Part shown: one piece after another, positions 1,586 to 53,571 of the stretch | Numbering within the stretch: the first letter of the stretch is position 1 | Layout of the letters: each line of letters begins with the position of its first letter | NCBI GenBank assembly: GCA_030144725.1 | Contig: JASKMD010000031.1 | Location: 5,939,827 to 6,003,826 of the forward strand | Length of the DNA stretch: 64,000 nt | Direction: 5' to 3' | DNA from: Haematococcus lacustris | Lineage: Eukaryota; Chlorophyta; Chlorophyceae; Chlamydomonadales; Haematococcaceae | Program-made: the position numbers and the translations under genes | Notes under the pieces: model-generated | What the model was told of the DNA's origin: nothing | What the model saw: only the letters and a program-made list of their open reading frames with translations | Databases searched by the model: none

Positions 1586-4500
1586 ATGGTGGCACTTAAT
1601 GCACGCTTACCGGGCCAGGCCCGGCCCACTATGCACGGTACCCTGCGACAGAGGACGTGCATATGCGCGGCGCAGCCATCGTCTGATACCTCTCGTCCAG
1701 CTGCTGCAGCGAGCAAGCTGCCCCCAAGACCAGTCAGGCCACCTGTGATGCTGGGCCCAGACGGACAGCCCTTGCAGGTGGGAGGGTGCAGTGCGTGCAC
1801 ACGGAAGGTCTCTCATGGATGCTGTATAGCAATAATTGGGCAAGGCACCCTGTCTCTCTGCAGGTGGTTCCCGTAGAGAAAGCTGGTCCAGAGGCTTGGG
1901 CTGGAGTGGCAGCAATCGACAGGGGTGCCGACAACTTCAACTATAGGTGTGCCCCATCATCCATGCTGCAGGCCAGCCTCAACAGCCTTCACCCAGCATC
2001 ATGGTCAGCATGTTCTCACCATGCATCCATGGTGCCCAGCCCTGTCATGTCTGTGACGCAGCAAGGCCCTGACATTGGCTGGGGGTGATGCCGTGGCGCT
2101 GCTGTTGTTCGCTGCGGCTGGCCGCATCAACCATGGAGGGGTGCTGGATTGGGAGACCGGCTTGACAGCCCTGCCCTTCCTGCTGGGTGCGTTACTTGGC
2201 AGCGAGCACAGCCGGGGGTTCAGGGGCGGCGCAGGATGCATTGAAAGAGCATATGCCCGGCAGCTAGCCATAAGCAGGAAGCAGTAGCAGTAGCGGCGAA
2301 CAGCATGTAAGTGTGAGCATGGCCACCGCCTGTCAGTGCCACAGTGCAAGCAGTGAGGGGCAGCCAAAGGCGACATGGAAGTAGCGGGCAGGTGCATGCG
2401 CTGCTGGCAGCATCTAGTGATCCCCTAACCATACCAGCCCTGTCTAGGGCTGACTACCTCACTGTCTCCTGGCAACCAGCTCTGTCAGCCTCCCAGCCCA
2501 GCCTGTTGCCAACCACCTACATCCCTCCCCAGCCAGCAAATGTCAGCTGTCACCCTGAGGTGTGCTGTGGGCCTGCGCCCTGAACCTGTGGCCAGGGTGC
2601 CAGCCGCACCTGCTATTGTTTGGGCTGATGCCTGGTGCTGTTTGCAGGCTGGTTTGCCACGGCACCCTTCCTTGGCGGCTTTGGCCCTGAAGCGCAGGGC
2701 AGCAAGGTGCCCGCTGCCACCCTGGTGGCCGCGAAATGCTGGGCTGTGGCCACCCCCCTGGGCCTGGCTCTGAGGGGGCTGTCGGTGAGTAGGCCCCCAG
2801 CTCAGCCCCCCCTCTGTCTGAGCCCGTGTCGGTGCATGAAGCAGAGGGCACCGCACGTACCTACCCCTGGCTGCTAATGCAGCAGACGCTGCGCTCACTT
2901 GGTGCTCCCAGTTGCGTCATGAGATACTCCAAATGTCCACATGCCCAGCCATGTAGAGCAACATCCTCATGCTCAGATCTTCACACCTCCTGCCTGCACC
3001 ACCATTGCACCTCGTTTGCGCCAGAAGAGGCATGGCATGAGAGGTGGTTGGCTGGACTGCTGTAGGCCTCCTTGAGTGCTGTGTGCTGGGGCAGCGTGCT
3101 GTCCACCCGCCCTGCCTGCTGATGCCTCACTTCACCCACATGGCAGTGTAAAGTGGTGGTGAAGGGGTAGATTTGCTTAGTGGTGTACAAGGTGGTGTAC
3201 CAGCAGTCAGCCTGGTATAGTTGTATGCTAGCTCAGTGCTCTAAACCAACAAGGACAGCATGTAGCTGCTGTGTGAAATTGCATGTCGGGGTGGTGCAGA
3301 AAGGCTATGTGCCGCCTACTCCCTTCATCATCGTCAGCTTTGTGGCCACAGCGGTGCTGCTGCTGGGCTGGCGAGCAGCTGCGGCTGCCACCACCAAAGA
3401 GGTGAGCACCTGGTGGCGGTGTGGCGGTGCTCAGGGTGTCATGATTGTTAATTGGGAAAGAGGAATGTTGGCGTGTGAGGGGTGTTGGCTGTGAGTGGCA
3501 TTGACAGCGACGGCACTGACAGTGGCAGCATGCTCAGTGTGCAGAAACAGCAGCAGGAGCAGGGGTGGCCTGCTTGAGGTATCACAGGGGGAGGGATGGG
3601 GCCGAGGCAGGAGGGGTGGGGCAGGAGGGCAGGAGGGGAAGAGTGGGTCGGGGTGCTCTTGGACATGCAGCCTGGCAGGCGCTGCTGCTCTGATCCTCTG
3701 GGCTGCTGCCCTCCTGCTTATTGTGCTGCTGGCTCTGCTGCCGCTGCTGCTGCTGGTCTGGCTCCAGGCGCTTGTTGCACCTATGATGTTGCAGCAGCAG
3801 GCACCTAGCATAGAGGGTGGAAAGCAGTGGAGTATGTTGCAGGGCTGCAATGTCAGGCTGTCAGGGGGCCGCAGCAGCTATACTACCTTCAAGCACATCT
3901 GTGTTGCAGTTGTCACCGGTGCAGCTAGTGATGTTGACACTGGCGCAGCAGCCCCACAAGAGCAACAGCTCATGGCTAGTACGGGCCAGGGGGGAGACTG
4001 ACATCATCATGCCACAAACACTCAGTACAATCATGATGATGCAAGTCTCCACTGTGGGTTGCATTAGCCATGATCTGTTGCTCTTGCAACTCTGGCTACA
4101 GTGTTGAGTCGCTGCAGGGCTCTTTGAGCCCTTCTTGTAGTTAGGCTCACTCTCATGCATCCACAAACTAGGCGGCATCTAGAGACTCTCACATCCTTAC
4201 AGTGACCAGGGACTCTCAGGCCAACAAAACTTATTCAACAAGGAACAACATGTTTGCCTGTGGGTGATCTCACTCAGCTACTACAAACAAGTTGTAGCAT
4301 CCTCGGTCGCACCCTTAATGATTACAACCCCCACATCGATGGCACGTCCGTGGGCAAACCCCACACCACTGGGCACCTCATCAAATGCGACAGCTTGAAG
4401 CGTGACCAGCCCGTTGCACTAGTAAACACTAGTGAACCAGCTAGGCGCCATTGCTCTAGGGCTCGGGTAGTGATGGAGCTCCACGAGGAAGCTCCACTAT

Positions 4501-19435: not shown

Positions 19436-19695
19436 CTGGGGCCACTGGGTCCCACAAGAAGAGCGCCTCCATCTCATAGTCACACCTGCAGGGCCGTCAT
19501 AGCCAACCACATGCACCTGGCAGTGCACCCAACTGGCAACCTGCCTGCCCAACGCCCATGATGCACAGCAAGCATTGGGTACGTGGTGTTGATGGCAGCA
19601 AATGGTGGTGATGGCGCTGGTGAGGGTGATGGGGACAGGATGCTCATTACACTGACGGTGAGTGCAATCAGCAGGCTGCAGCAGCAGCACATGCC

Positions 19696-22600
19696 TTACC
19701 AGGTGCAGTGAAGGATGAGCAGGCCACCGCCGGCTTCCTCAGGCACGGTCAGGGCACGCATTGGTCCGGGCTCCCAGACTGCCTCCCCGCTGTTGTTATC
19801 CAGCACCACGAGCTGGGGGGAGAGCAGCAAGCGGAACAGCAGACACGGTATCAGGCATGCAGTTTACTCTCATACCATGCACATAGCCAATACTGCACAT
19901 GGAGTGTGCATGCAAAGCTTAGTGAGACGCCCCCTCCACAAGCAGAGCCCCAGAAGCAGAGCCCCCTCCCTACATGCTGGCAGCCTGCCCCTGTCACACC
20001 TTGAATTGGTAGTAGCCTGGCTGCAGGGCCACGCTGGCTTGCCACATGTCCTGGTCATTGCAGGTTAAGGCCGGGGAGGCGGCCAGGTCCCACGCACCAA
20101 ACTCAGGGCGCCCACCCACAAACTGCACGCCAGGTCAGCAGCACGGCCTTTTTTGCGTGTCACCAAACGGTAGGGTGACCTGGAGGACTGATGAGTGCAG
20201 TGATGCCAGTGAAGAGGGTGAAGGTACAAGGAGCGGGTAGCCATGGCTGCTCCCCCGCTGGGATCACTTACCCTGACCACCTGATGAGGAGGCAGGCTGC
20301 AGGACATGGATAACTGAGCCACCACCTGGCCTGCTCGCACTCCTGCCTGCAGGCACACAAGCACATGGCGCACACGCAGATTAACATGTTGTTATCAAGT
20401 CCTCAATGAAGGTAGGCCAAGGAGCTGAACAAATACAGCAATGGTTCTAGCAGCAACTTTGAGCAAGCTGACTGCACTATTTGCATGTGTCATCCCACCC
20501 TGTAGCGTCCATGGTAGTCAGTCTGTGACCAGACAGCCAGTCCAGGCAAGGTCACCTAAGATCCACACCACTGAACCAAACACAGCTCTCTACAAGTGTG
20601 GCCTTAAACAAACCAGGACCGCATAGACACACATACTAGTGCTGCCCTGGTCAAACTGGAGGCTGGCATCTGCACTTACTGGGCTAGGACTGCTACGGCC
20701 TGGAGACTGGCGAGGTGGGGATAGCTTGCTGGGCGAGGGTGAGGCCTCCTTCGAGCCCCTGCCCCTGTTTCCAGCACTGCAAATGTCAACCATAACTCCT
20801 TCATTGCACGCCTGGCTCATTGCGATGCTGCTGGGCTTTGCAGGACTGCCTACCCAACCGTTGCTGTTGTCGCCGCTGCTGTATAATGCTGCTTCAGAAG
20901 TCTCCGCGCCTGGGCTACTGCGGCACACAGGGCTGACCTGGCCTATGCCGCTGCTGCCTGCTAAGGAGCGAGGATCAGCACTCTCCACAGGCAGCTGATT
21001 GTGGCCATGCCCGACCGATACAACCTCGCTGGCCACAGTGTGTGACACGGAGGGGCTGCGCCTGCTGCGCTCCATGTTTGCGCCCTCCACAAACTCCGCG
21101 ACCGCCTCCAGAGCTTGCTCATAGCCTGGAGAGGGAGAGCGCTGGCCTGCCAGCGATGGCTGGGCTGGTGTGGGCCAGTGCATAGGCAGCAGGCTAGGAG
21201 GCAGCTGGAGCACTGCTGGACCAGGGCTGGGAGGCTGGTTGCAGCGGACCAGGTCATGAACCTGCGAATGCATAAGGGGCAGCAGCGGTTACCAACAGCA
21301 CGGGCCAGGCAGCAGACACTGCTCTGGCTCGGACACTGCTGTGCCTATTAACAACATGTCCATCGTTGCTTCACATGCAGTGTGCGTGCCTGCTTGTACA
21401 GCAAGCTGCCGGCACCAGAGGACAGCAGCGGTTACCAACAGCAGGGGCCAACATGACAGCACATTAATTTCCCTACTATGGGTAGGGGCTGTGTTATCTG
21501 TAATCCGACCTGTGTGTCTGCGACCTACAGCCGGTACCAATATCTAATTTACCTACCTCTACCCCCTTGCAAGAGTCGGGCGATCGATGTTGGCATGAAA
21601 CACATGCTCTGATGTAAGCGACAGCTTAAACTTTGCCTGGTGCACACATACTACTGTGCCACAGGCTGCTGGGCCTGGGCCTCGGGTGGGACATGACAGT
21701 ATGAGGCTCAGGTAGGCCCGCTGATGGCAGTATCAGGCCGCATGCGAGTAGGATAATAACGGTGTTGGGTTTAGAGTGGAGAAGAGGTACGGCAAGGTGT
21801 GGGGAGCGTAAACCTGTTTCGTTTGCCCTGTGTGTCGCTTGCATCTACAACCCCGTCCGCGCTGCTGTGCCCACCCTGCTTTGCCTGATGAGCTTGTGTG
21901 GTGCGGTGGGGCTGCCAGCACTTAGCCCACACTGGACGCACCTGCTCCTCATGCCGCCTCGGGTCAGTCACCAGGGCAGCGGGCAGTGCCACGGGCCTCT
22001 CCCTCAGCACTTGGACCAGGTCGCAGACCACTTGCTGTACCTCCTGTGCCTCACTGCTACTGTGCACAAGGCTGTGCTGTTGCGCCTGCTGCTGCGCCTG
22101 CTGCTGCGCCTGCTGCTGCGCCTGCTGCTGCGCCTGCTGCTGCGCCTGCTGCTGCGCCTGCTGCTGCGCCTGCTGCTGCGCCTGCTGCTGCGCCTGCTGC
22201 TGCGCCTGCTGCTGCGCCTGCTGCTGTGCCTGCTGCCACATCAGGTCACCAACTTGCGCTATGTCTTGTACATGGATCTCTACGCACTGCTGACCCGACC
22301 CAACATGGGCACCCAGGTCGACCCACTGGCCAGCCAGCTGCTTCTGCTCCACCTGCACCTGCGCTTCCCCCGCCTTGGCTGTAGTGTCTGTAGCCAGCGA
22401 CACCAATGCTGGTTCACCAGCACCCAGCACAGCCAGCTGGGAGCTTGCCCTTGGAGCCTGCTCCTGGTCAGCGAGCAGATGTGCACACACCTCCTCACAC
22501 CCCATGAGCTGGCTCTGGTTGTCGAGCTGCTCTGCCTGCTGTCCCCAATGGTGCAGCCCACCCAGCTGCTTGGCATCTGGATCCTCTGCCTCCCTCACCA

Positions 22601-25600
22601 TCTCCGGCTTGCTGGTGTGTCGCGCACTGTCAGTCAATGCCACTGTTTGCAGCTGGTGACAAGCAAGGACAAGAGGCAGAGGAGCCTCCGGCAGAGAGTC
22701 CTCCAGTTTGTGATCCAGTGTTGTGGGAGGAGAGGTGGCAGCAAGGGTGGAGCTGGAATGGAAGGGGTTGGAGCCAGGCATGGGGGGTGGGCTTGAGGCT
22801 GCCAGATTGCCCCACACCCTGGTCACTTCCTGGTGCTGGCTATGGGTAGCGGCTTCATCACAAGGTGGCAGAGGCTTATCACAAGCTGGCAGCAGGTACT
22901 GCACCCTCGTCTGGGCCAGGCCTGGCTGGGCATTTGGCTGGCTCAGCCGGGCCTCTGGTGCCAAGTTGCTCCACACCTTTGCAGGAGTGGCGCGGCTGTC
23001 CCAGCGCTCAGAAGGAGGGGGCAGGGCCAGGAGCTGCTGATACAACCCAGGGACGCTGTTGAGCACCAGCTGAGTTGAAGGAGGCGGCGGTAGGAATGAA
23101 GTTATGCGGCCAACCTCCTCCCTGAGCCTCATTTCTGGTGCTCTCCCGTGACCCCTGTGATGCTCGTCTCCATGACAGCAGTCTTCAGCACTTTTCTCAG
23201 GCTCAACCAGGAAGGGGCTAGGCAATGAATGAGAGCACTCACTGGTCCCAGCGCCGGCTGTGTCCCTTGCATGTGAGCAGGGAGCAGCGGGCTCTGCAGC
23301 TGGGCTGGGCTGGGGCCTGGCGTCCTGAGGGGGCAGCTTGTCTAGAGTCGTGCTGGGTGGAATAGGTAGGTGTGTGACTACCTGGCTGGTGTAATGTGAA
23401 GCAGAAGGCATCATCTCTAGGGGGCGCTCTGTCTGCTGAGGAGGTGGGGAGGACACCCTGGAAGGCACCCTCTCAATCTCCCCCTCCTGCTCATCCTTGC
23501 GGTCCCCGCTCCAGGCACCCTCTTCCCTAATCACCCTCCAGCTGGGTGCCTGTCCCCTCTCCCCTGCCGCACTCTGCACTGCCTGGCCAGCTGCCTCCAC
23601 CCAATCTTCCTGCAGCCCCAGACCAGGCTCCCCAGCTGCAGCCTGCACTGCCTGCCTGCCGGCCTGCACCCAGTCCAACCACATCTGTCTTGCTGGGCTA
23701 GCTGCTGTGTCATCAGCCACCTGTGAGGAGGAAGGGGGAGAGCAGCAGCTGTGCTCAACCCTGCCAGGGGCTGCCTGGAGACTCTGGCCCGCTGCCTGCA
23801 CTGCTGCCTGCAGCACCGCCGCCTGGAAGATGCAGCCTAGCCCTAAAGCCTCGGGCGTAAATGATACAGGGAGCCTTGGGCAAGGTTTGCCACTGTTGCC
23901 AGTGCTGACAACATTGCTACTGCTGGTACTGTTGCTGCTGGTCTCACTGCTGGGGCTGCAAGGCTGTGGAGCAGGCAAGCTGCTGCCTTCAGCGCCTGGC
24001 CCTGGTGTGCCAGCTGTGGCTCCATGAATGGCTGTAGCTGCAAGCACCAGTGGGGCACCCCAGGGGGCTGCTGAGAGCATGGGCATGTCGTCATAGCCAT
24101 AGCTGTTGCCCTGCCCTTGCACTCCCCATCCTTGTTGCCCTGGTTGACCTGATGGGGGGGCTGGCTGGCTTGCTGGCTGGGGGGGCTGGCTGGCTTCCTG
24201 GCTGGCTGGCTTGCTGCCTGCCACGTCTGATGTAGGCTCAGACGTCAGCTGGAAGGGCCCAACACCCCCCGCCACCATGCTCCCATCCTCAGGTCTTGCT
24301 GCTTGCAAGCATGGGCTTCCTTGCACTGTTGCCTCACTTGGCAGCGTAGCAGCAGCTAGGTCAGCAGGAACAGGAGGCTGCTGGCTGGGGACGACCGTGG
24401 CATGCTGCAAGCCCAGGGCCGTGTGCTGCACTGTTGTGAAGCGAGAGGCATGGAGTGTGGTGAGCTCACCCTGCAGCACATGTGCTATGTGCATGGCTGG
24501 CTCAAGCTTGGTGGCAGCAGCAGCTGTGAGCAAGCGCACTGGTGTTGGGGTAAAGGAGGGAGCGGGCAGCGAGGAGGCGGGTAGAGGGACGGTGAGAGGC
24601 ACGGGAGTTGTGGAGGTGCTGGGTGTGAGCAGCAAGGGGGGCTGCAAGCTTGTCCCACAGCCAATCAGGGCGGGCTGACCAGGACCAGACAGAGCAGGCA
24701 TCACCTGCGAGGACACACAGGGCCGTTGCTGATGTGCAGGCAGGGAGGGCCACATGAGAAACATCCAAATGGTGATAGGGAGTAACTCAGGAGCACGTGT
24801 GGGTCAAGCTCTGCCGGCCCACTCTGATCTGCACCAACCCTGCTGCACTCTTTACCACAGTGCTGTTGACAGCGCTCACCTTCTGGTGTGGTGTGGCAGG
24901 CTGGGTGATGGCCCTGCTTTGCCTGCTATTGTGGTGGACCCATGCCTGCGCACCAACAAAACAACACGTTTGTCCACCTGAACCTGAGAACCTCACCTCA
25001 CCCCACCCCACCAAGTCCAAGTTACTCCACACACCTCACACACACACTTTGCTACCTCACACATTTTTGTCGGACACACTGAAATATGCACCTGTGCAAT
25101 TTGCCCACCCCCCTTACCCCCGTGTCCATTCTTATTCTCAATGCCGTGTGAAAAGCAGGAGGGCCATTGCAGCGCTGGGCCCACATGTGAGCATGCGCAG
25201 CTGGGGCATCATGCGCTGGCATGCAAGAGGCAGGGTGAAGGCAGGTGATGGAAAGCATCACACCTTGGGTGAGTGGGTGTTCGGCAGCAGCAGCAACTGG
25301 TGCGGTAGCCGGGCTCTGTCACCCTGCTTGCCCTCCATTGCCTTGAATCTGTCTTGGCTGTTGGGAAGGTGCCGCCTTGGATCCAGCAGCTGCATGCACA
25401 GTAGGGTACAGCTACTCAGTGCACCACGCATAGATGAACATACAAACACCCTTCCACCTTCAGCTGAGCTGCATCTCCCACCCTATCCCGGGCAACTTCA
25501 ACACAGGGCCGCCAGAGTGCAGGTAGCTTTGCGATTACAGCCCTGTGACACAGGTTCAGTCCCAGCCACTGGTCTGCTGCAGGCCCAGCCAGCCCTGAGC

Positions 25601-28600
25601 ATGTGCATGACTTTCCCACCCCAGCTACCCTCCACACCCCTACACACCCACACCCCTGTGAGCTGGCAGCTGGGGCTCCTCAGCCCCTAGGAATCTTGTC
25701 ACCCACCTTGCCCAGCCCAACAGGAACCAGGGAAGAACTGGAGCTCTGCCCCTTGCCCGCCGCATGCCGTGCCCCCAATCTGCCTTCCCAACACTCTGGC
25801 AGCCACAGGCCACTGCGCCCCGCCCTTCCTGGACTTACAGCCCTACCAACACTCGCACCCAAACCCCCACCCTGGCCCAGTGCAGGTGGGCCAAGCAGCA
25901 CCCCCTGCTGCTGCTTGTATGCCACTGCATCTTGCACCAGGAGGAGGCGAGCGGGGGTCAGGAGCAAGCTGCGGGACAAGGAGGCGGGTGCCACGGTGCG
26001 AGCGCCGCGCAGCCCCGTGCTGGCCAACACATTGTTTGAAGTCAGGCCTGATGCCCGGCCCGTTGCTTGACCCATCTCCCTGGGCGGCAGCGTGGCCTGC
26101 AACCCGTGCGCCCTGCTCCAGCCTCTGCCTCCAGCCTCTGCCTCCAGCCTTCTATGATGGGCCTGTTCCAGCATCTGCGCAGCCATGCCACCTACCCTGC
26201 TTGCTTGGATGACGCTGCCCCTGTGGTTGGTGATGATGATGCTGTTCGCCTGGCCAGGTGCTGGGGGGCGACGCCCCACAACAGCATCACCCTGACCAGG
26301 CCGACCTTTTGGGTACCCCCAGGCAGCCACCCCAGCGCCCCCCCCTCCCCCTCCCCCTCCCCCCCCTTCTCCGCCTCCCCATCCACGTCGGTTGCCACTG
26401 CGCCCTTCTCCCCCTCCTTGTTGCCCCGGCTGACTCGGTGGGGGCGCTGGCTGACTGCCTGGCGTGGGCTCAAACGACTGCTGGAAGGGGCCTTCTGACC
26501 AGGGCCAGCTGGCCTGCAGGACGCCTGGCTCAGCAGGGACTTGCAGCTGGTGGTTGGGGCCCTCCTCCCAGCGCACCAGGTCCCGCATGGTGCTGTGTCG
26601 CACCAGCGCCTGGGACCACACCAAGGGCGCAGGCCAGCCAGGGATTACATGTAGGCGGGTGGTGTGAAAGGATGGCAGTGTGCCACACCCTTTGCAAACA
26701 GTTCATGACGCAGCAGCTTTGTTGGTAATGATACACACCATTGTTCATGAAACACACCAGCCTGGTTTGACTGCTGGGCATTGTTTAATCACAAAAGCCC
26801 TGTTTGCAGGCACCCCTCCTGCACTGCCTGGCTTCACAACAATGTTGCTGATGCATCACGGGAGGTGGGGGGTCGTGCTTGTCATACAAGCCAGTGTGCA
26901 GCTTAGCGGGCCTGCTTACCTTGATCTCATATGTTCCTGGCGCCAGCCTGAGCTCAGCCACCCACACGTTGCCAGGGGTCCAGTGCATCTGCACGGCGTG
27001 CTCAATGTCCCACGACCCAAACTCAGGGGTGTTGCCAGACACCTGCATGATTTACGCAATGCATGGGGCAAGGAGGTCGCATCAGAGGCATGCAGCCATC
27101 AAGGTGCAACGCCCAGACCCTCCCTCTTTTGAGCCATGCGCCATGCACGGGTTTAGGATTAGCGTTAGGGCTAGGGTTAGTGCCATGCACAGATAACTGG
27201 AAGGTAACTGCACTACACAGAATTTACCATTTACCCATCGTTAGGTATTTAAGAACAAACAGTGTCGCCATTACGGGACCCTGCCTTGGTGTGAGCAAAC
27301 GCAGGCCGCAGGGCAGTACAGTGCCCACCCACCTTGATGACCTCTCCAAAGTCGACCTTATAGGGCAATGCCAACTGGACCAGCACCACGCGTTCCTGCT
27401 CGGTGGCAGGCTGGCCCGGGCCCTGCAGCAGGCCAGGTTATTGGCATGGTTGTTAACACCTTGTCCAGGTTTGGTTGGGCCCATGTTTGTGACCAAGTTT
27501 ACATTTGTGTGACAAAAGAAGGCTAAAGAGCCCGCCATTTTGACCATGAGCTAGGTGCAGGGCAAGGCCGACAAAGCAGGGCATTTGCTCGGGTTGACAT
27601 GCGTGGCAGCGTAAAGACGGCATGCGAGGCGACCTACCTGGGCCATAGCTGCATGTGTCTCTGGCGGGGGGGTGATGGACCAGCTAATGATGGCCATCTG
27701 GGGGTCTTCCCCGCCAGGCTGCGTGTCAGCGTCATCGGCTGAGGAGGACACCACAAAGCCAGGGTGGCTGCTTTGCGCCGTGCGGGCCAGTGAGGGGCTG
27801 CGGGTGTGTTGCCTGACCGGGCTCCTGCTCATGCGGTCGGTGCTGTCACTGCCCGCAGCTGCACCAGACTGCCCCTTGCGTGAGGGGGTCGGGGTACGCA
27901 CACGAGGCTGGAGGCCTGAGGTGGGGGGTGGCAGATTCATGATGCTGCAGTCGCCTGCCGCAGCGTCAAGGTCTTCCCCAGCATCCCCCAGCACGCCAAG
28001 ACCCACACCACCATAGCCAAAGTCCTGCGCAGCTTCATCAGCCCCCTCATCACCACCATCCTTGTGGGACGCCTCCTCCACCGACTCCCCCCGTGACATC
28101 GTAGTGTTGGCAGGTGCTGCTGCAAGCTGAGCTGCTGGCTCTGATCTTGGCTCCTGCTGCAGCTCCCTCTGCTGTTGTGGCTCAACCGCTTGCAACATCT
28201 GCAACTGTAACGCCTGCTGCAGCTCCTCCTGCTGCTGGCGCTGCTGTTGTTGGTACAGCTGCTGCTGGTGTTGCTGCTGCTGCCGGCCCTCCCCATCCCA
28301 GCCTTGTGGCACCTGCTGCTGGCTGTGTGGGTCAGTGCCCTGTCCCTGCTGCGCTGCATACATGGCCTGCAGCTGGCTGTGGGCCTGCTGCAGCTCTTCA
28401 CCCTGCTGCAGCTCCATCATCAGCAAGCCCTCCAGGTCAGCCATGGTGTCAGTGTCTGATGGGTCAGGCAGCAGACCAGACATGCTGCCCAGGCGCCCCA
28501 TCATCCGGCCGGCTCCAGCTCCAGAACCCGCACTTGAGAAACCACCCACCCCTTTCCCCACAACCCCACTACTAGCCTGTTCTTGCTGCGCCAGCAGCTG

Positions 28601-31600
28601 CTGCTGCTGCTCCTGCTGCCTGAGCTGCAGCTGCTCCTGCTGCCCGAGCTGCAGCTGCTCCTGCTGCTGTCCTTGTGCTTGCTGATCCTCCTCTTGCCAG
28701 CCTGCGTGCTCCTGGTCGGTGGGAGGAGGTGCAGACGTGGACGGGGACAAGCCTGGACCCTGTGTGGTCAGGTCAGGGCGGTGGTTGCCGTTCAGGCCCG
28801 GCGCAGTTGTAGCTCCAGCTCCCAACAGAGGGGCGCCCAAGTCTACCTGTCCGACAAAGGGAGCTGCTGCAGCCTGACCAGCCTGGTCAGCTGGCTTAGC
28901 AGCAGGGTGCAGGGGGTGAGAGGGGGTTGGTGGCGCCTGTGGGGAGGGTGGGGGGGGCCTGGGGCTTGTCAGGCTGCTGGCGGCCAGCCGCTGGCTCGTG
29001 GGGAGAGGGGGAGGGGGGGCGGGGGGAGGGGCTGGTGAGGGGCTGTGGGATTCTGGCTCAGGGATCTCCTCCCCGCAAGACTGCCGCGTGGCCTGTACCT
29101 GCGCCATAGGGAGGGGAGAGCAGATAGGAGAAGCAGGTGGCAGGGGAGGTCGGCATGGCAGGGCAGCTGCATTCGCTGGAGCTCAGGAGCGCTTGGGGAA
29201 CATCCCAAACAACGGCTGCAAGGCGTGAAGTGAAGATGAAGTGTACAGTCACAAAGTACCAGCATTGCAGGTGTGGTATTGCAGGCAACGAGAGAGGGGA
29301 AAGCTACCACAGGCCACTTTTTCCCATATCTATCCATCACCATCTATTACGTCAGCCATAACTACAGCAACGGCACCAGCAACTGCCATTCCAACAGCAG
29401 CAGCAGCAGCAATGGCCAGTGAGCAGATGTGCTTTCACCTGGGCCAGCACCCCTCTTGCCCTCTGCAGTTTCCTGGATATCTCTTCCTGCTCTGCCTGCG
29501 GCAGGGCAGCGCACAGGTGCTGGCTGGCCTCCAGCTTCGCCACCAGGGCCTGTACCTCCACTTCAGAGGCCCTCAGCTGCTGCAGCTTGCGCTTCATGCC
29601 CACCGCATCAGAATGCAGGTCAGCATGTACACCAGCCAGCCCTGCCATCAGGCTGGCTGTGGGCGAGGGTGGGCGGACCTCGGCTACCTCCCCCCCTGCC
29701 CCTGTCCCCGCCCCTGCCACGTCACCACCCTCTGCCAGCTGCGGCCCAGCTGCGGCCCTCTCGCTGCCTGCTGCCACTCTGCCCCTGCCCTCAGCCAGCT
29801 GCTCAACTATGGGCCTGGGGTCCAACGGGGAGGGTGCTGCTGACTGCTCTGCCGCCTGGCTCCCTGGGGGTGGTGAGGGGGTCCGCGGTCCGTTGCCGCT
29901 GTCTTGCTTAGGGCCAGAGTTGCCATAGACCAGGCCCGGGCTGCGGTTGCCCACACCCCCCGAGGACAGCGCTTGCAGCCGTGCGGCAACAGACATTGAC
30001 CCAGGGCCCATGGCGACAGCTGCTCCTGAGGCGCCTCGAGATCCTCGACGCAGGTCGGGGCGAGAGGGCTGTGGGGAATCCCCTGAGCCCATGCGTTGGA
30101 AAAGTGGTGTGCGGGCTGGGGCAGTCTCTGGGGGGCTGCGAGGGGCAGGGGAAGCTGGCCGAGCTGCCGCGGGGGGGGAGGGGCTGTTGCTTGCGGCTGG
30201 AGAGGCAATAGTGGTGGATGCTGGGGCAGAGGCTGCAGGGGGTGAGCTGCGCTGGAAGGGTTGCTGCCCCGAGTGTGAGTTCAGCCCGCCTGTGCCTGGG
30301 GAGGGGGGGCTGGGGGAACGATTGCCTGGCTGCAGACTACCTGCACTCTGCTGGGTCGCAGAGCTGGCATGAGCCAAAGGGCTAGCAGGGCGGGGGGGCC
30401 TCTTACTGCCAGGAACACTTAGGAGCATGGGGGGAGCTGACAGGTCAGGGGATCTATTCCTGATGGCTGCGCTGGGTTCTGCCAGGGAAGGGGGGGAGGG
30501 ATGAGTGCTGGGTGCCTTCAGGGGAGAGGCCTGAGCTCGGCTGGATGATGGACTGCCATGGGTGGAGGAACGGCTGGGAGGCTTGGTGGCTGCTGGGCGG
30601 GGGGGTGCCCCTAGCAGGGCAGCGTACTGCAGCAGGCAGGCAGGAGCATACAATGAGCATGCAATCAGCATCCAATGAGCAGGCCCAGAGCCACCTGACC
30701 TGATAGACACAGATGAGTCCCTAGTCAGGGCAAGTGCAGGTGCACAGGCTAGTCAGGTGTCAGAGCTCATTAGTTAGGCCCTTGCCCGCCTCCAAAGATC
30801 AGTGACATACAGTAAAGCATCAACTCAGTTGCGCCTCTTCCCCACCCCCCCTCTGGCCGTAAGGGCTGGTAAGGGAGAATCCTATGTGCCGCCTGTTGAT
30901 GCTAGAGCCCCATCCCCCAACCCACTGCCTGACCCACTCGCCTGTGCTTCAATCGCCGCAGCACTGGCAGCGAACTCCTCAGCCTGCATGTTGCCGGCGT
31001 CAAACTCCTTTCGCAGTCGCCTGAGAGCGTAGGTGCGCTTGCCCACCAGGCTGGCTCGCTCCTTCTTGGTGAGGCCGGGAGCAGCTGCCCCCGCCAGGCC
31101 CCCCTCGGGCCCTGTGGCAGACCCACTGCGCCTGCGCCCAGTCTTGGCAGCTGCTGCACTGCCACCATCTACAGCTGGGCCGGCAGCAACCAAGGGAGTG
31201 GCAGAGAGTGGGTTAGGGTGAGCTGTGGCGGTGTCAGCCTGTGCCACCGGCTCAACTGGAAGCATGGGGCTGTCAATGTGGCTACCTGCCTCATCCACAC
31301 CAGCATCACCCTCAGCCTGGTTAGCCGGCAGGACTTCAGCAAGGAGTTCAGCAGGCTGTGGGCTAGAACGGAGTGCCTCAGCAGGGCTTCCCTCCAGCAA
31401 GCCTGGCCCTGGCCCAGCCTCCGCCCCTGTGGGCAGCGCTTGGCTTGGAAACCAGCTCTCCACCTCCTCCTCTGCAGCCTCCTCGTTTTCATGCTCAAGC
31501 AACGCATCCTGCTCCACTGCTGAAGCCGCCACTCCCTCACCCCACTGCTGCCCAAGTGTTGCTGCTCCCAGAAACCCTTCGCCACCCCACTGCTGCTCTG

Positions 31601-34600
31601 CTGCTGTACTCTCCACCGCCTCCTCGTCACCCCACTGCTGCCCAAACGCTGCTGCTTCCGTGAACCCTTCCTCGCCCCACTGCTGCTCCACTGCTCCCCC
31701 CTGCTCTGCCTCCTCCGCTGCACCCTCCCGCTCCCCCTCAAACTCGCTGGGAAGCAAGGGGCTCCACTGCTCTTCATGACTTGGCTCCTGGTCAGGCAAC
31801 GCAGCTGGGTCGGTGCGGGGCGGATGCAGCGGATGCAGGGCTGGAAGCGGGGCAGCAGAAGTGGTATGCAGTGGTGGAGGGTCCCGGGAGGGTGATGGGT
31901 ATGTGGCCAAGGAGTAGACCTCGTTGGTGCAGGTGACAAGGCCTGCTTCATGGAGGCGGCACAGGGCGGCGTCCACCTGCCACAGCGCCAGGTGGGCCCT
32001 GCGCACCATGATGCGTGCAAGACTGTGTCACCATCATCACCACCATCATCATCCGGGCTACTGGTGTCAATAGCTGAAGGACCCTGCAGAGGGGGGTGAC
32101 AGTTGTGTCAATCCCTCCTGAGCTGATTGAAAAGGACCCCTAGGCCATACCTTAGTCCAGATTGAGCCCTCAGCTGCCTTGCAGCCTACCAAGTACCATC
32201 AGAGGATGCATGCAGCTGCCAGCAGTGTGAGGTGGGCCCCCCTCACCAGGAGCAGTGGAGGGCACAGCTACAAGTGGTAGCTGCTACAGCTGTTAGCACC
32301 AGGCTGTCAGACAATCAACCCCTGGCCATTGCCGTCCCTTATCCCAAGTACCCCGATCAGGTGCAGCGGTTCACAAGGCTGTGGGACAGCTTGCCACTCA
32401 CTGGCCACTGCCCTCCCTCATCCCAAGTACCACAACCAGGGGCGCACCCAGCTGTCAATGCTGTGGGATGGTTAGCCACTCACTGGCCATTGTCGTCCCT
32501 CATCAGGGCGTGCACCTGCTCCACCCCCAGGCAGTGGTTGCGCTGCAGGAGGTCCAAGGCCTGCTGAGCAACACCCTGGATATCGAAGAAGGCCTCAGGG
32601 AACGTGGCTGCCAGGTCCCATGCGCTGCTCTGCACTGCTGGATCAGGGCTGGTGCGCCCCCCAAACAGAGGGGACGCAGAGGGGACCTCCTCCCCCTCCC
32701 CCACTTTCTCTGCCTCGTCCACCTCCGTCTGTGACCCTTCTGACATACTGGCCTCGTCCGCACCGTCTGCCCCCTTATCATAAACCCACCACCGCACGCC
32801 CAGCTGCTCTGCGGACGCCCTGCCTGCCTGCACAGCGCTGCCCTCTACCTCAACAGGTGAGTCAGGCTCAAAGTCTGAGTCAGTGCTTTGGTCCGACCAG
32901 GAGTAGAGCTGGTGACCTGCTGGGTCAGCAGCTGCAGGCAGGGCTGGCGCGGGGGGCTGCTGCAGGTGGTGCTGGTTGTCGGGTGGCAGGGCTGGATGGG
33001 GGCCCTTGCGCCTGACCAGCCTCAAGTTACCACGGGGGTCCCTCACCAGCTGCCCCTCTGCTGCCAACACGTCCAGCACCCGGCTCAGCTCAGAGGCAGT
33101 CGCTTTGGGGGCCCTGCAGGAGCATCCCATTCGCTGCTTGCCGCTTCTGCCCTGCTGCTTTGAGCAAAGGCATGGGTGCAGCAATGTGGAAGCTGGAAGA
33201 CTTTGAGCTATAGCAAGGTGACATGAGATGCCTGGCTTGTGCTAGCATGACAATTGCAGCCTCGGTGGGTAGCAGCAGCACCAAACCGCTAGTGCGCGGC
33301 AGACATGGCAGGCTGATGCACACCCTTGTCAGCCCACACCACACCTGCCTTGACAGGTGATGTGAATGGTGAGCATGCAACGAAAACCCTTAGCGGCCAA
33401 GTGTGCGGCAGCACCCTCCTCTCAAATTCCCCCTTCCCCCACCCCCACCTCTTGGTTCTGGAAGAGAGCTTGGCCAGCAGGGCATTGAAGGTGATGCCTG
33501 CTTCACCTTCAAGCACCCCCAACACCTCCTTCTCCAGGCTCACACCCAGCACCCCCCCTGCCTCCTGCTCCGTCGCTGGTTTGGGACCTGTTGCTGCCGC
33601 CGCAGCATGCTGTCGTGGGCTGCCTGCAGCTTCCTGGACCCAGCTGCTTGGTGAAGGGTCCAGGTGGGCAGTGGCAGCAGCGGTGGAGGAGGAGGCAGGC
33701 GTGAGGGGTGGGGTCTTAGCCAGCTTGATGTTGCCGCGAGTGTCGCGCACCACCCGGCCTGCCTCACTCATGCGGTCCAACAGCTCACCCAGCTCCTGAG
33801 AACTCCATGGTGGGTCACTGCAATAGAAGCCGAGGTCAAAACCGTCAACGGCATGCGGCTGCTTCAGTAGCTTCATGGGGAGCAGTTGCATGATGCGGAT
33901 GGTGGTGCTAAGCATGATGACAGGTTGGCAGTGAGGCCACAGTCAACATCAGGCCGGCTGGCGGGGGCGGCAACAAGGGGATAAGGAGCATACTGGTTGA
34001 CTGGGCCCAAGCTGGGCAGCCTGTACTGTGGCGTGGTCGAGTTGACTGGGCAGCGTTACCAGACAGACACCTTTACAACCAACCATGCATATGACGCTTG
34101 CTGTGCTTGCCTGGACTGTTTCTTGAGCCCTGCCAGCAGCCAGTTTGTAGAGATCCCAGCCACCCCCTGCAGCAGCTTCACCACTTGCTGCTCACGCTGC
34201 ATGCTGCCCTCTGCACCATTCGTCTCCAAACAAATCGTTGACTGGGAGGGTTGGGGAGGAGCAGGGACAGGGCTTGCACGCCGCTCAGTGTGGGAGATAG
34301 GGTGAGGCAGGGCAGGGGGAGGGACAGGGGGGGGGCCATTGCCCACAGAACTGGGTGCGAGCCTGATGTTGCCACGTTTGTCCTGGATCACCATCCCTGC
34401 TATGCTTAGAGCTTCCAGCAGGCTCATGAACTCGTCTCTGTGCAGGCTGATGCCCCTGCACATTCCAACGCCTCGAGCAATGTAAACTAGGGTCAGTGGG
34501 CAACAACAAAATCTTCAGTGCATGCACTTAGATGGACATCGCCACACCGTGCTGCTGGACACTGCAAGCTGTGAGCTTTACAGTGATGCTGGACACTGCA

Positions 34601-35337
34601 AGCTGTGAGTTCTACATCAGCATTGGAGGGCATGCCGGCTCTACTCACTGACCGCATGGCCTTGGTTAGCTGCGCATGCAAGGAGCTGGCCGTCATCCCC
34701 GGAGCCCCTTCTAGGATGTTGAGTATCTCCTGCTGTAGCTCTTCTGCTGTGGCTGCCTCGTCACATGTCTCTGGTGGGATGGCTTGTCTGGCCACCGCAT
34801 CTTCAGCTTCTGTGTTTGGAGCTGGTGGACTGATTGGGGAAAAGGTCAGTGCTGATTTGGACAGCTTGACGTTCCCCCTATTATCCTTGATAACAAACCC
34901 TCTGCGGCTCAGGTTGTCCAGCGCTTGACTCAGCTCTGCATGGCTGATTTTGTGGCCGCTGCAGGATCAGGCAAGTGTTGGGATAAGACTTTGGGTAAGT
35001 CAGCCCTTGGGGGCCACAGATTTCCTCAGTCAGTAGTTCATTACCTGGAGGACTTGGCGAGCGTTGCCAACAGCGTGTTGAAGGTCGTTCCTGGGAGGTC
35101 TTGCAACACGGCGACCACCTCCCGCTCGACCAGGTCAGCAGGGGCCGTAGAGTTTGACACAGCGCAGGCTGCCTCCACGCGCCTGCTGCGAATGCCGCTG
35201 TACGCAGTGCGGAGCAAAGCGCCGTGCCGTTGACCACCGGTCTCGATTGCGCGCTTGCTGTGCTTGATGCCCGCAGCTTGCTTCTTTAACAAAGACCCTG
35301 CGGCAATCCGTGAAGGAGCGGCTATACCGCAGTCCAT
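19696..35337 (-). CDS. Giant protein with winged-helix-like repeats and two CBM20 starch-binding domains
   Basis: Seventeen exons join in phase: 35045-35337, 34653-34958, 34111-34455, 33449-33817, 32484-33113, 30942-32022, 29439-30626, 27638-29098, 27333-27422, 26920-27042, 25707-26609, 25264-25389, 21942-24704, 20680-21261, 20272-20346, 20000-20122 and 19696-19812 (about 3,524 residues). The N-terminus is basic with a VEAACAV site typical of algal plastid leaders. Five modules follow (about residues 70-690). Each has a helical half (EREVVAVLQDLPGTTFNTLL) and a half like ELSQALDNLSRRGFVIKDNR-GN-hydrophobic, as in winged helices. Next are a SHOCT-like stretch (about 965-1005), a coiled coil (about 1340-1404) and Gln/Pro/Ser-rich regions. 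CBM20 domains lie at about 1892-2000 and at the C-terminus (3421-3524). A starch-bound plastid scaffold is inferred. It could be two genes; the join across exons 11-13 is least certain. Two introns use GC-AG. Confidence 0.7.
21471..21690 (-). mobile_element. 3' end of a TnpB/Fanzor-like element
   Basis: Lies in intron 13 of the giant CBM20 gene. On the minus strand it begins within the last codons of the family protein (AQQPVAQ then stop at 21651-21653) and continues through the same 3' flank as 14085-14264, including the words CATCAGAGCATGTGTT and CCAATA/CCGGCTGTAGGTCGCAG. It ends at a CCCTAC-(5)-GTAGGG hairpin at 21471-21487. No transposase body is present, so this is a 5'-truncated or non-autonomous insertion. 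Confidence 0.6.
22077..22235 (-). repeat. Coding (CAGCAGCAGGCG)n repeat
   Basis: About 12 copies of a 12-base unit encode Gln-Gln-Gln-Ala in exon 13 of the giant CBM20 gene. The reading frame is maintained because the unit is a multiple of three. Length polymorphism is expected. Confidence 0.9.
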
Positions 35338-35639: not shown

Positions 35640-36197
35640 CGGGTCAGCTCAGCAGTGAATGGCCAGCAGCCCTGTAAGGAGCAGCTGCACAGCTTCAGTG
35701 CCACCAGGCCTGCAACTTGAAAGCCCCCAGCAGGGCAGGTGGAACACCGCCTGTTGCGTCCAGCCTGGAGCCAGCAGCGTGACCTGCCAGTGCAGGGCAT
35801 GATGTGATGCCCAGTAGTGGCACCACGCAAGCCCCCACAGGACCCATGCAGCAGCCAGGAAGCCTCACAGCCAGCAGCCTCAGAGCCTGGGCCCAGCACT
35901 CCCCTGCCAGCCGAGCGCAGCAAGCGCACCAAGGCTGAGCCGGCAGCTGAGCCCACAAAGGCCAAGGCAAAGGCTGCCAAGGCAAAGCCAGCACCACAGC
36001 CAGGCAGGTGGCTGGACAGGGACTGCAATGCGGCACTGAACATGCAGCGCATTGGGGAGAGCAAGTGGCGCCCGCTGGAGCTGTGCTGGTGGCCAGAGCA
36101 GGGGAAGCTGCCTGCCTAAGGCAAGGAGTACCCTGGCCTGGGGTACAAGCGGCTGCGAGACAAGCCACCCAAGGCCCAGCCTGCTATGGCACAGTAG
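35640..36197 (+). pseudogene. TnpB/Fanzor-like relic, C-terminal part
   Basis: Reads VSSAVNGQQPCKEQLHSF, KPPAGQVEHRLLRPAWSQQR, CPVVAPRKPPQDP, a Lys/Ala-rich linker, then GRWLDRDCNAALNMQRIGES and WRPLELCWWPEQ, and after a stop KEYPGLGYKRLRDKPPKAQ to a TAG at 36195-36197. DRDCNAALNM is a good match to the RuvC-III catalytic block of TnpB/OrfB and Fanzor proteins. In-frame stops (after RPAT, after GMM and after KLPA) inactivate it. The N-terminal two-thirds is absent. It has the best-preserved catalytic motif in the window apart from the next copy. Confidence 0.6.
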
Positions 36198-36529: not shown

Positions 36530-36791
36530 CCAGCCCACTAAGGGCAAAGGCAAGGCTGCTAAGGCAAAGCCAGCACCACAGACAGGCGGGTGGCTGGACA
36601 GGGACTGCAATGCAACGCTGAACATGCAGCGCACTGGGGAGAGCAGGTGGCGCCCCCTGGAGCTGTGCTGGTGGCCAGACCTGCCAGCTCTGCCAGCCAA
36701 GGGCAAGGAATACCCTGACCTGGGCTGCAAACGGCTACGAGACAAGCCTCCCAAGGCGCAGCAGCAGCAGCAGCCTGCTGAGGTACAGTAG
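36530..36791 (+). pseudogene. TnpB/Fanzor-like relic, C-terminal fragment
   Basis: An uninterrupted frame runs KGKAAKAKPAPQTGGWLDRD, CNATLNMQRTGESRW, RPLELCWWPDLPALPAKGK, EYPDLGCKRLRDKPPKAQ, a Gln run and a stop at 36789-36791. The Asp of the RuvC-III-like block (DRDCNATLN) is intact. Only about 85 residues remain, so it cannot encode a nuclease. The fragment is closely related to the copy just upstream and may be a tandem remnant. Confidence 0.6.
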
Positions 36792-36794
36792 TGT

Positions 36795-37345
36795 CACACA
36801 CGCAAAGTAGTGCACAATTAGCGATTTTGAGGGGGTGTTTTTTGTATATCATTCGCCTCGGAATGAGACTGTCGTTCCATGGCCACCAACATCGTGAAAC
36901 ATGTCGTAGTAACCAGCGATATTCGTGAACTAAATAAATAATATTTAGTTCCCCCTTTTTCAAGCAACTCCTTGTAGTGCAGTACTGCACCATACCTTAT
37001 GCTGCAGCAATGCACCAAAATCTCAGCGTAAAAAACTGCACCATATCCAGTCTAGTAGTATTATGATGTAATAAAGTAGTTATGTTGGTAACTCATTGGT
37101 ATTTTAATGGTTTGGACTTTGTTGTTCTTTAAAAGTTTATTTGCTTCTCATGGTGTAGTACTGCACCTGTCACGACTGCACTTCTTCATTACACCCCATT
37201 GTGCAGTACTGCACCACACCGAGTGGTACAATACATCACCTCAGCAATATCTCACTAACCACGCATATCTGTGAATATTCTTCAAACCCTATCCTTACAA
37301 TCACATCACCGGGCTTTGTACTAAATCTCAGGGTTACTAATACGC
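36795..37345. repeat. AT-rich stretch with repeated AGTACTGCACC motif
   Basis: Base composition drops sharply relative to neighbours. The word GTACTGCACC and near matches recur at about 36978, 37030, 37155 and 37203. No coding frame. It is probably part of a mobile element. Confidence 0.45.
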
Positions 37346-53071: not shown

Positions 53072-53571
53072 NNNNNNNNNNNNNNNNNNNNNNNNNNNNN
53101 NNNNNNNNNNNNNNNNNNNNNNNNNNNNNNNNNNNNNNNNNNNNNNNNNNNNNNNNNNNNNNNNNNNNNNNNNNNNNNNNNNNNNNNNNNNNNNNNNNNN
53201 NNNNNNNNNNNNNNNNNNNNNNNNNNNNNNNNNNNNNNNNNNNNNNNNNNNNNNNNNNNNNNNNNNNNNNNNNNNNNNNNNNNNNNNNNNNNNNNNNNNN
53301 NNNNNNNNNNNNNNNNNNNNNNNNNNNNNNNNNNNNNNNNNNNNNNNNNNNNNNNNNNNNNNNNNNNNNNNNNNNNNNNNNNNNNNNNNNNNNNNNNNNN
53401 NNNNNNNNNNNNNNNNNNNNNNNNNNNNNNNNNNNNNNNNNNNNNNNNNNNNNNNNNNNNNNNNNNNNNNNNNNNNNNNNNNNNNNNNNNNNNNNNNNNN
53501 NNNNNNNNNNNNNNNNNNNNNNNNNNNNNNNNNNNNNNNNNNNNNNNNNNNNNNNNNNNNNNNNNNNNNNN
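53072..53571. other. Assembly gap of 500 N
   Basis: Exactly 500 N, the size of a conventional placeholder, so the true gap length is unknown. Any frame crossing it is meaningless. Confidence 1.

Follow-up and report, generated by a model that had tools for sequence, protein, structure and literature searches.

The window analyzed here is a 64,000-nucleotide stretch of Haematococcus lacustris DNA (C182:5939827-6003826), part of the genome (308 Mb, 597 contigs) that was also searched for further copies and paralogues. It carries one very long gene on its minus strand. The splice model runs from an ATG at 35337 to a TAA at 19696, and its 18 exons give 3,538 codons plus the stop with no internal stop codon (Table 1). 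The original prediction had proposed a single long open frame of 17 exons and about 3,524 codons; the frame stands, and the counts are revised here. Introns 3 and 6 have GC donors, and that of intron 3, at the end of exon 3, is also found in a paralogous gene on C22. The N-terminal fifth of the predicted protein would hold four or five winged-helix modules (M1-M5), and most of the protein is low-complexity linker. One CBM20 domain (CBM20-1) lies mid-protein and a second (CBM20-2) at the extreme C-terminus, with long, probably flexible linkers between these parts.

Exons 12 and 13 are uncertain and were kept in the model tentatively, because both can be skipped with the frame still open (3,474 codons), because two of the three comparisons between copies gave, for both exons pooled, four nonsynonymous changes and not one synonymous change (the third gave neither type), and because the paralogue model has no separate exons matching them. 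The Pfam scan gave no match in either exon, and their basis is the open frame.

A genome search with the deposited H. lacustris protein V8C86DRAFT_1009117 returned 39 matches, which comprised three near-identical copies on C182, including the window gene, and three copies on C22 of a paralogue with 45-57% identity. All three C182 copies maintain an open frame (3,538 codons in the window, 3,521 and 3,578 in the others). At all 17 introns, the AG acceptors and GT or GC donors are kept in both other copies. Length changes in coding sequence were multiples of three in 7/7, 8/8 and 11/11 cases in the three copy comparisons, whereas this held for only 8/32, 4/14 and 7/28 of the intron changes (Fisher 4e-4, 1.5e-3 and 2e-5; the three comparisons are mutually non-independent). 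The ratio of nonsynonymous to synonymous substitution rates (dN/dS) over the whole gene was 0.47-0.51. Values for single domains are based on few changes: 0-0.06 for CBM20-1 (where defined), 0-0.33 for M1, M2, M3 and M5, and 0.25-0.75 for M4. In CBM20-2 the amino-acid sequence was unchanged, with one synonymous change at most. The CBM20 domains are thus under strong constraint, and the long frame that carries all these domains is under selection. Conservation was examined within Haematococcus, one eukaryote genome.

The C182 copies lie at 1.470, 2.191 and 5.975 Mb, and the C22 copies at 5.662, 8.129 and 11.453 Mb. Each locus occurs three times on a single scaffold in mixed orientation, with about 95-100% identity in exons, and most CBM20 matches in the genome likewise come in twos or threes. 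These triplicates look like either large duplications or haplotype copies joined in one scaffold. Intron 5 of the window gene contains an 82-base tandem repeat (32322-32504), and this intron is shorter by 82 bases in one C182 copy.

Modelled in the same way, the C22 paralogue comprises 17 exons with 3,642 codons, and its parts follow the same order as those of the window gene. Identity between the two was 53-67% in M1-M5, 67% in a box at residues 951-1010, 59% in a probably helical stretch at residues 1311-1420, 51% in the leader, 29% in CBM20-1, 80% in CBM20-2 and 27-47% in the linkers. Comparison of paralogue copy 1 with the other two showed coding length changes in threes (19/19 and 10/10; introns 15/49 and 6/23). 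Residues ~3040-3330 of the paralogue form a long Ala/Glu/Gln/Arg-rich, probably coiled-coil stretch before the last CBM20, which was not seen in the window gene. Because the frame is open in three copies, the splice sites are kept, the length changes come in threes and the paralogue has the same exon order, an open frame by chance is excluded, and on this sequence evidence the gene is real, intact and duplicated. Its architecture represents a real two-gene family in Haematococcus.

We considered whether two or more adjacent genes, one coding for the winged helices and one or two for the CBM20 domains, had been read as one. V8C86DRAFT_1009117 shares 96% identity with the first part of the window gene and matches it over residues 1-777, after which it departs from the frame and ends inside exon 6 after 840 residues, as a split would have it. 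However, the frame that it leaves is open in three copies. A second deposited model, HaLaN_14825, omits portions of exons 4-6 and is out of frame over one stretch of exon 7, but it is in frame at the end of exon 6 and, though patchy, continues into pieces of exons 7 and 8 (its course through exons 6-8 was read by eye, since BLAST gave mostly repeat matches). In the paralogue, which repeats the entire order, the linker ahead of CBM20-1 and the first CBM20-1 strand form one exon (L028 7094-8203), a fusion of window exons 8 and 9, and the end of CBM20-1 continues into the next linker within a single 3,894-base exon; no gene boundary therefore fits there. All coding length changes kept the frame in the five comparisons. 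Split genes are thus very improbable, and we rejected this reading on frame conservation and the colinear paralogue; the one long gene originally proposed is borne out by the three open copies, their kept splice sites and the same colinearity.

In a protein database search with exons 1-6, 8,000 candidates were scored and the only proteins recovered were two from Haematococcus. A 2,255-residue query, region 60-720, gave none among 8,000, and CBM20-2 within a 2,538-residue query gave 217 candidates, none at E <=0.01; these negatives are weak owing to length limits and low-complexity words, and even the C22 paralogue was missed.

Module 1 has the predicted fold of a winged helix, with three helices followed by a two-stranded wing (H-H-H-E-E). 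Similarity to module 1 suggests that M2, M3 and M4 are also winged helices, and structural support for M5 is weak. Each of the five modules is interrupted by a phase-2 intron, at module position 31 in M1-M4 and 33 in M5; in our best explanation, the array arose by repeated duplication of one exon unit. In Pfam scans of exon pieces and spliced parts, M4 alone matched MCM4_WHD (PF21128) above the family cut-off (25.3 bits) and M1 below it (18.0 bits), and the 406-residue M1-M4 stretch reached E 2.7e-12. M2, M3 and M5 were unlisted at E 1, and paralogue M1-M4 at E 0.5. The winged-helix family ANAPC2 was above cut-off on the spliced M1-M4 stretch, and weak SelB winged-helix matches appeared at E 0.013. 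No domain other than CBM_20, MCM4_WHD and ANAPC2 passed its cut-off in these piecewise scans, and neither an enzyme domain nor the MCM ATPase domain was found in them. A whole-genome MCM4_WHD search gave nothing, not even the window's own modules; since introns split every module, it is uninformative on other genes. TALE matches of a five-module profile in the PDB were rejected as sums of many very weak matches to repeat arrays.

In structure comparison by VIA-align, the closest structures included regulators that bind DNA (MarR, PadR) as well as cullin WHB domains, which bind protein. Whole-module net charges ranged from -4 to +5. The wings of M1-M4 are basic, and residues 68-700, acidic linkers included, have a net charge of -25. 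Because this region is acidic overall, the charge pattern weakly favors a protein over nucleic acid as the client. A tether in which the winged helices bind plastid DNA or RNA, docking nucleoids or transcripts on the starch or pyrenoid surface, is unlikely in view of these charges, and the fold is common to protein binders such as cullin WHB.

Both CBM20 domains belong to Pfam CBM_20, with 53.9 and 40.8 bits against a cut-off of 23.3. CBM20-1 aligns with solved starch-binding domains of starch-degrading enzymes, and CBM20-2 matches glucoamylase 1ac0. Both domains retain the site-1 tryptophan pair, the Trp of SWD/AWD and of RWE/VWE aligning with solved CBM20 domains; the role of these residues we take from glucoamylase. 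All four CBM20 domains of the two genes have two phase-0 introns each at matching positions, as judged by eye. Both domains of the window protein would bind starch in the cell. The CBM20 domains of SAGA1 and SAGA2 are described as binding starch in vitro (PMC13167743).

The leader is basic, with a net charge of +8 and two acidic residues among the first 50, contains VEAAC, and may target the protein to the plastid. Green algal starch is located in the plastid, and a plastid location of the protein would fit this. A scaffold on cytosolic or other non-plastid polysaccharide, with a leader that is not a transit peptide, would account for the unusual conservation of the leader (51% between paralogues, dN/dS 0-0.17 between copies on few changes) and for the lack of the VEAA (VxA-A) pattern in the paralogue. 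The basic composition and the plastid site of algal starch make this improbable.

A strict pyrenoid starch-sheath tether of the SAGA type would bind Rubisco directly and line the matrix-starch interface. The pattern [DN]W[RK]xx[LIVA], which we take to be the Chlamydomonas-type Rubisco-binding pattern, had no match in the 3,538 residues, and the paralogue had one relaxed match. Such a tether is therefore unlikely, although CBM20 domains and very long linkers would suit it, SAGA2 is reported to have two consecutive CBM20 domains natively, and the SAGA authors foresee that other algae have proteins of equivalent function whose Rubisco-binding motifs differ (PMC13167743).

Table 1. Features of the window gene. 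Exon rows rest on the splice model and alignment with the two other C182 copies, unless stated.
Feature	Position	Strand	Remarks
Exon 1	35045..35337	-	begins at the start codon; basic leader (residues 1-67) followed by the first half of M1; V8C86DRAFT_1009117 starts identically; 98-99% identity in two other copies
Winged-helix module M1, residues 68-136	34844..35136	-	cut by phase-2 intron 1
Exon 2	34653..34958	-	linker between the second half of M1 and the first half of M2
Winged-helix module M2 (predicted), residues 170-238	34341..34744	-	cut by phase-2 intron 2
Exon 3	34111..34455	-	linker between the second half of M2 and the first half of M3; GC donor
Winged-helix module M3 (predicted), residues 285-353	33703..34202	-	cut by phase-2 intron 3
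Exon 4	33449..33817	-	linker between the second half of M3 and the first half of M4
Winged-helix module M4 (predicted), residues 408-475	33002..33540	-	cut by phase-2 intron 4
Exon 5	32484..33113	-	acidic linker between the second half of M4 and the first half of M5
Probable winged-helix module M5, residues 616-683	31893..32581	-	cut by phase-2 intron 5
Exon 6	30942..31998	-	second half of M5, acidic region, start of the conserved LTKKER box; GC donor
LTKKER box, residues 951-1010	30597..31091	-	spans intron 6; 67% identity in paralogue; no Pfam family above cut-off
Exon 7	29439..30626	-	Ser/Pro-rich linker, then conserved, probably helical stretch
Exon 8	27638..29098	-	Gln/Pro-rich linker; one exon with exon 9 in paralogue
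Exon 9	27333..27422	-	first strand region of CBM20-1
CBM20-1, ~residues 1884-1995	26487..27422	-	exons 9 to early 11; Pfam CBM_20 1.7e-14
Exon 10	26920..27042	-	CBM20-1 core
Exon 11	25707..26609	-	end of CBM20-1, Gly-rich linker
Exon 12 (tentative)	25264..25389	-	open frame only
Exon 13 (tentative)	24880..24945	-	open frame only
Exon 14	21942..24704	-	long low-complexity linker; 12-base repeat (Gln/Ala) at 22075-22236
Exon 15	20680..21261	-	Ser/Pro-rich linker ahead of CBM20-2; no Pfam match
CBM20-2, residues 3435-3538 and stop	19696..20346	-	exons 16-18 (20346-20272, 20122-20000, 19812-19696); Pfam CBM_20 2e-10
TGTAA, possible polyadenylation signal	19647..19651	-	weak

The TGTAA lies 45 bases past the stop. 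This word serves as a polyadenylation signal in Chlamydomonas genes, but the assignment is weak here because it is also present within introns and at one place in exon 11. A short plus-strand frame (35808-36119) upstream of the gene start contains the words RDCNAALNMQRIGESKW, and a similar stretch lies at 36559-36996; the frame presumably resembles the C-terminal end of TnpB/Fanzor-like transposon proteins and has no Pfam match. A 500-base assembly gap (run of N) at 53072-53571 is the probable cause of the low GC value at 52-54 kb. The window had no Rfam match at the gathering threshold.

Taken together, we favor, with a probability of roughly 0.5, a nuclear gene for a giant scaffold that sits on starch through its CBM20 domains and captures a client with its winged-helix array. 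The protein of about 3,500 residues probably ties other molecules to starch. The CBM20 domains would anchor it there, the long Ser-, Pro-, Gln- and Gly-rich linkers could supply reach, and the array would dock a client, for which a protein is likelier than nucleic acid. The original interpretation is borne out in part. The one long gene, the N-terminal winged helices (by predicted fold and structure comparison, weakly for M5) and the two CBM20 domains (both above the profile cut-off) agree with it; the plastid leader and any nucleic-acid binding stay putative, and the starch-tethering role is still a matter of inference. By titles and abstract openings, we found no paper on such a protein, with winged helices joined to a starch-binding domain; the review PMC11122601 contains CBM20 and winged helix once each.

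Several observations weigh against the scaffold reading, besides the early end of V8C86DRAFT_1009117. The gene is known here from DNA alone. Constraint is uneven among the C182 copies, with dN/dS of 0.58-0.84 in exon 14 and, on few changes each, 0.36-1.09 in the 951-1010 box and 0.16-1.30 in exon 15. One of the three paralogue copies (C22 copy P2) has an in-frame stop at codon 1490, the other two being open. The first CBM20 of the paralogue lacks both site-1 tryptophans and has no Pfam CBM_20 match at E 0.5, so that two working CBM20 domains are not required in every family member. With clearly less confidence, we consider it possible that the two genes represent a class of giant starch tethers, in which an array of exon-duplicated winged helices would serve as a docking platform and connect starch with a protein assembly or else with nucleoids or transcripts of the plastid. 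Such a class would be kept in Haematococcus as two diverging genes, one with two intact CBM20 domains and one with a single one.

How algae place and shape the starch in their plastids is a matter of active research. For Chlamydomonas, starch placement is attributed to CBM20 proteins with Rubisco-binding motifs, which are reported in close relatives only (PMC13167743). A conserved CBM20 gene pair with a different docking part offers a direct handle on starch placement in Haematococcus, and identification of the winged-helix partner would show what this alga fixes to its starch.

By analogy, the window protein would act as a flexible tether to starch, comparable in general type to Chlamydomonas SAGA1, SAGA2 and BSG1. 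SAGA1 and SAGA2 are CBM20 proteins that fix starch in place, SAGA2 with two such domains (PMC13167743). They carry Rubisco-binding motifs, whereas none was found in the window protein, and the sections consulted do not mention winged helices for them. BSG1 (Cre02.g091750) is an algal-specific CBM20 protein affecting starch granules; it has 792 residues, an N-terminal CBM20 at 72-150 and a coiled coil, with no winged helix mentioned in the part consulted (PMC6374437). It was rejected as an ortholog because its CBM20 is N-terminal, whereas those of the window protein lie far from the N-terminus. Arabidopsis PTST2 is likewise described as a non-catalytic carbohydrate-binding protein, acting in starch granule initiation (PMC13167743, PMC6374437), but it combines CBM48 with a coiled coil (PMC6374437) instead of CBM20 with winged helices. 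The modules resemble the C-terminal winged-helix domain of MCM4 in the M4 and M1-M4 matches given above, but the window protein has no MCM ATPase part in the pieces scanned, joins the modules to CBM20, and has a paralogue whose M1-M4 are unmatched. Cullin WHB, MarR and PadR share only 6-21% identity with the modules, and no other cullin or regulator domain was found in the scans. On the features tested, the protein is not a member of the SAGA, BSG1 or MCM groups; it belongs with the CBM20 starch-tether proteins, whose tethering role it would share by inference.
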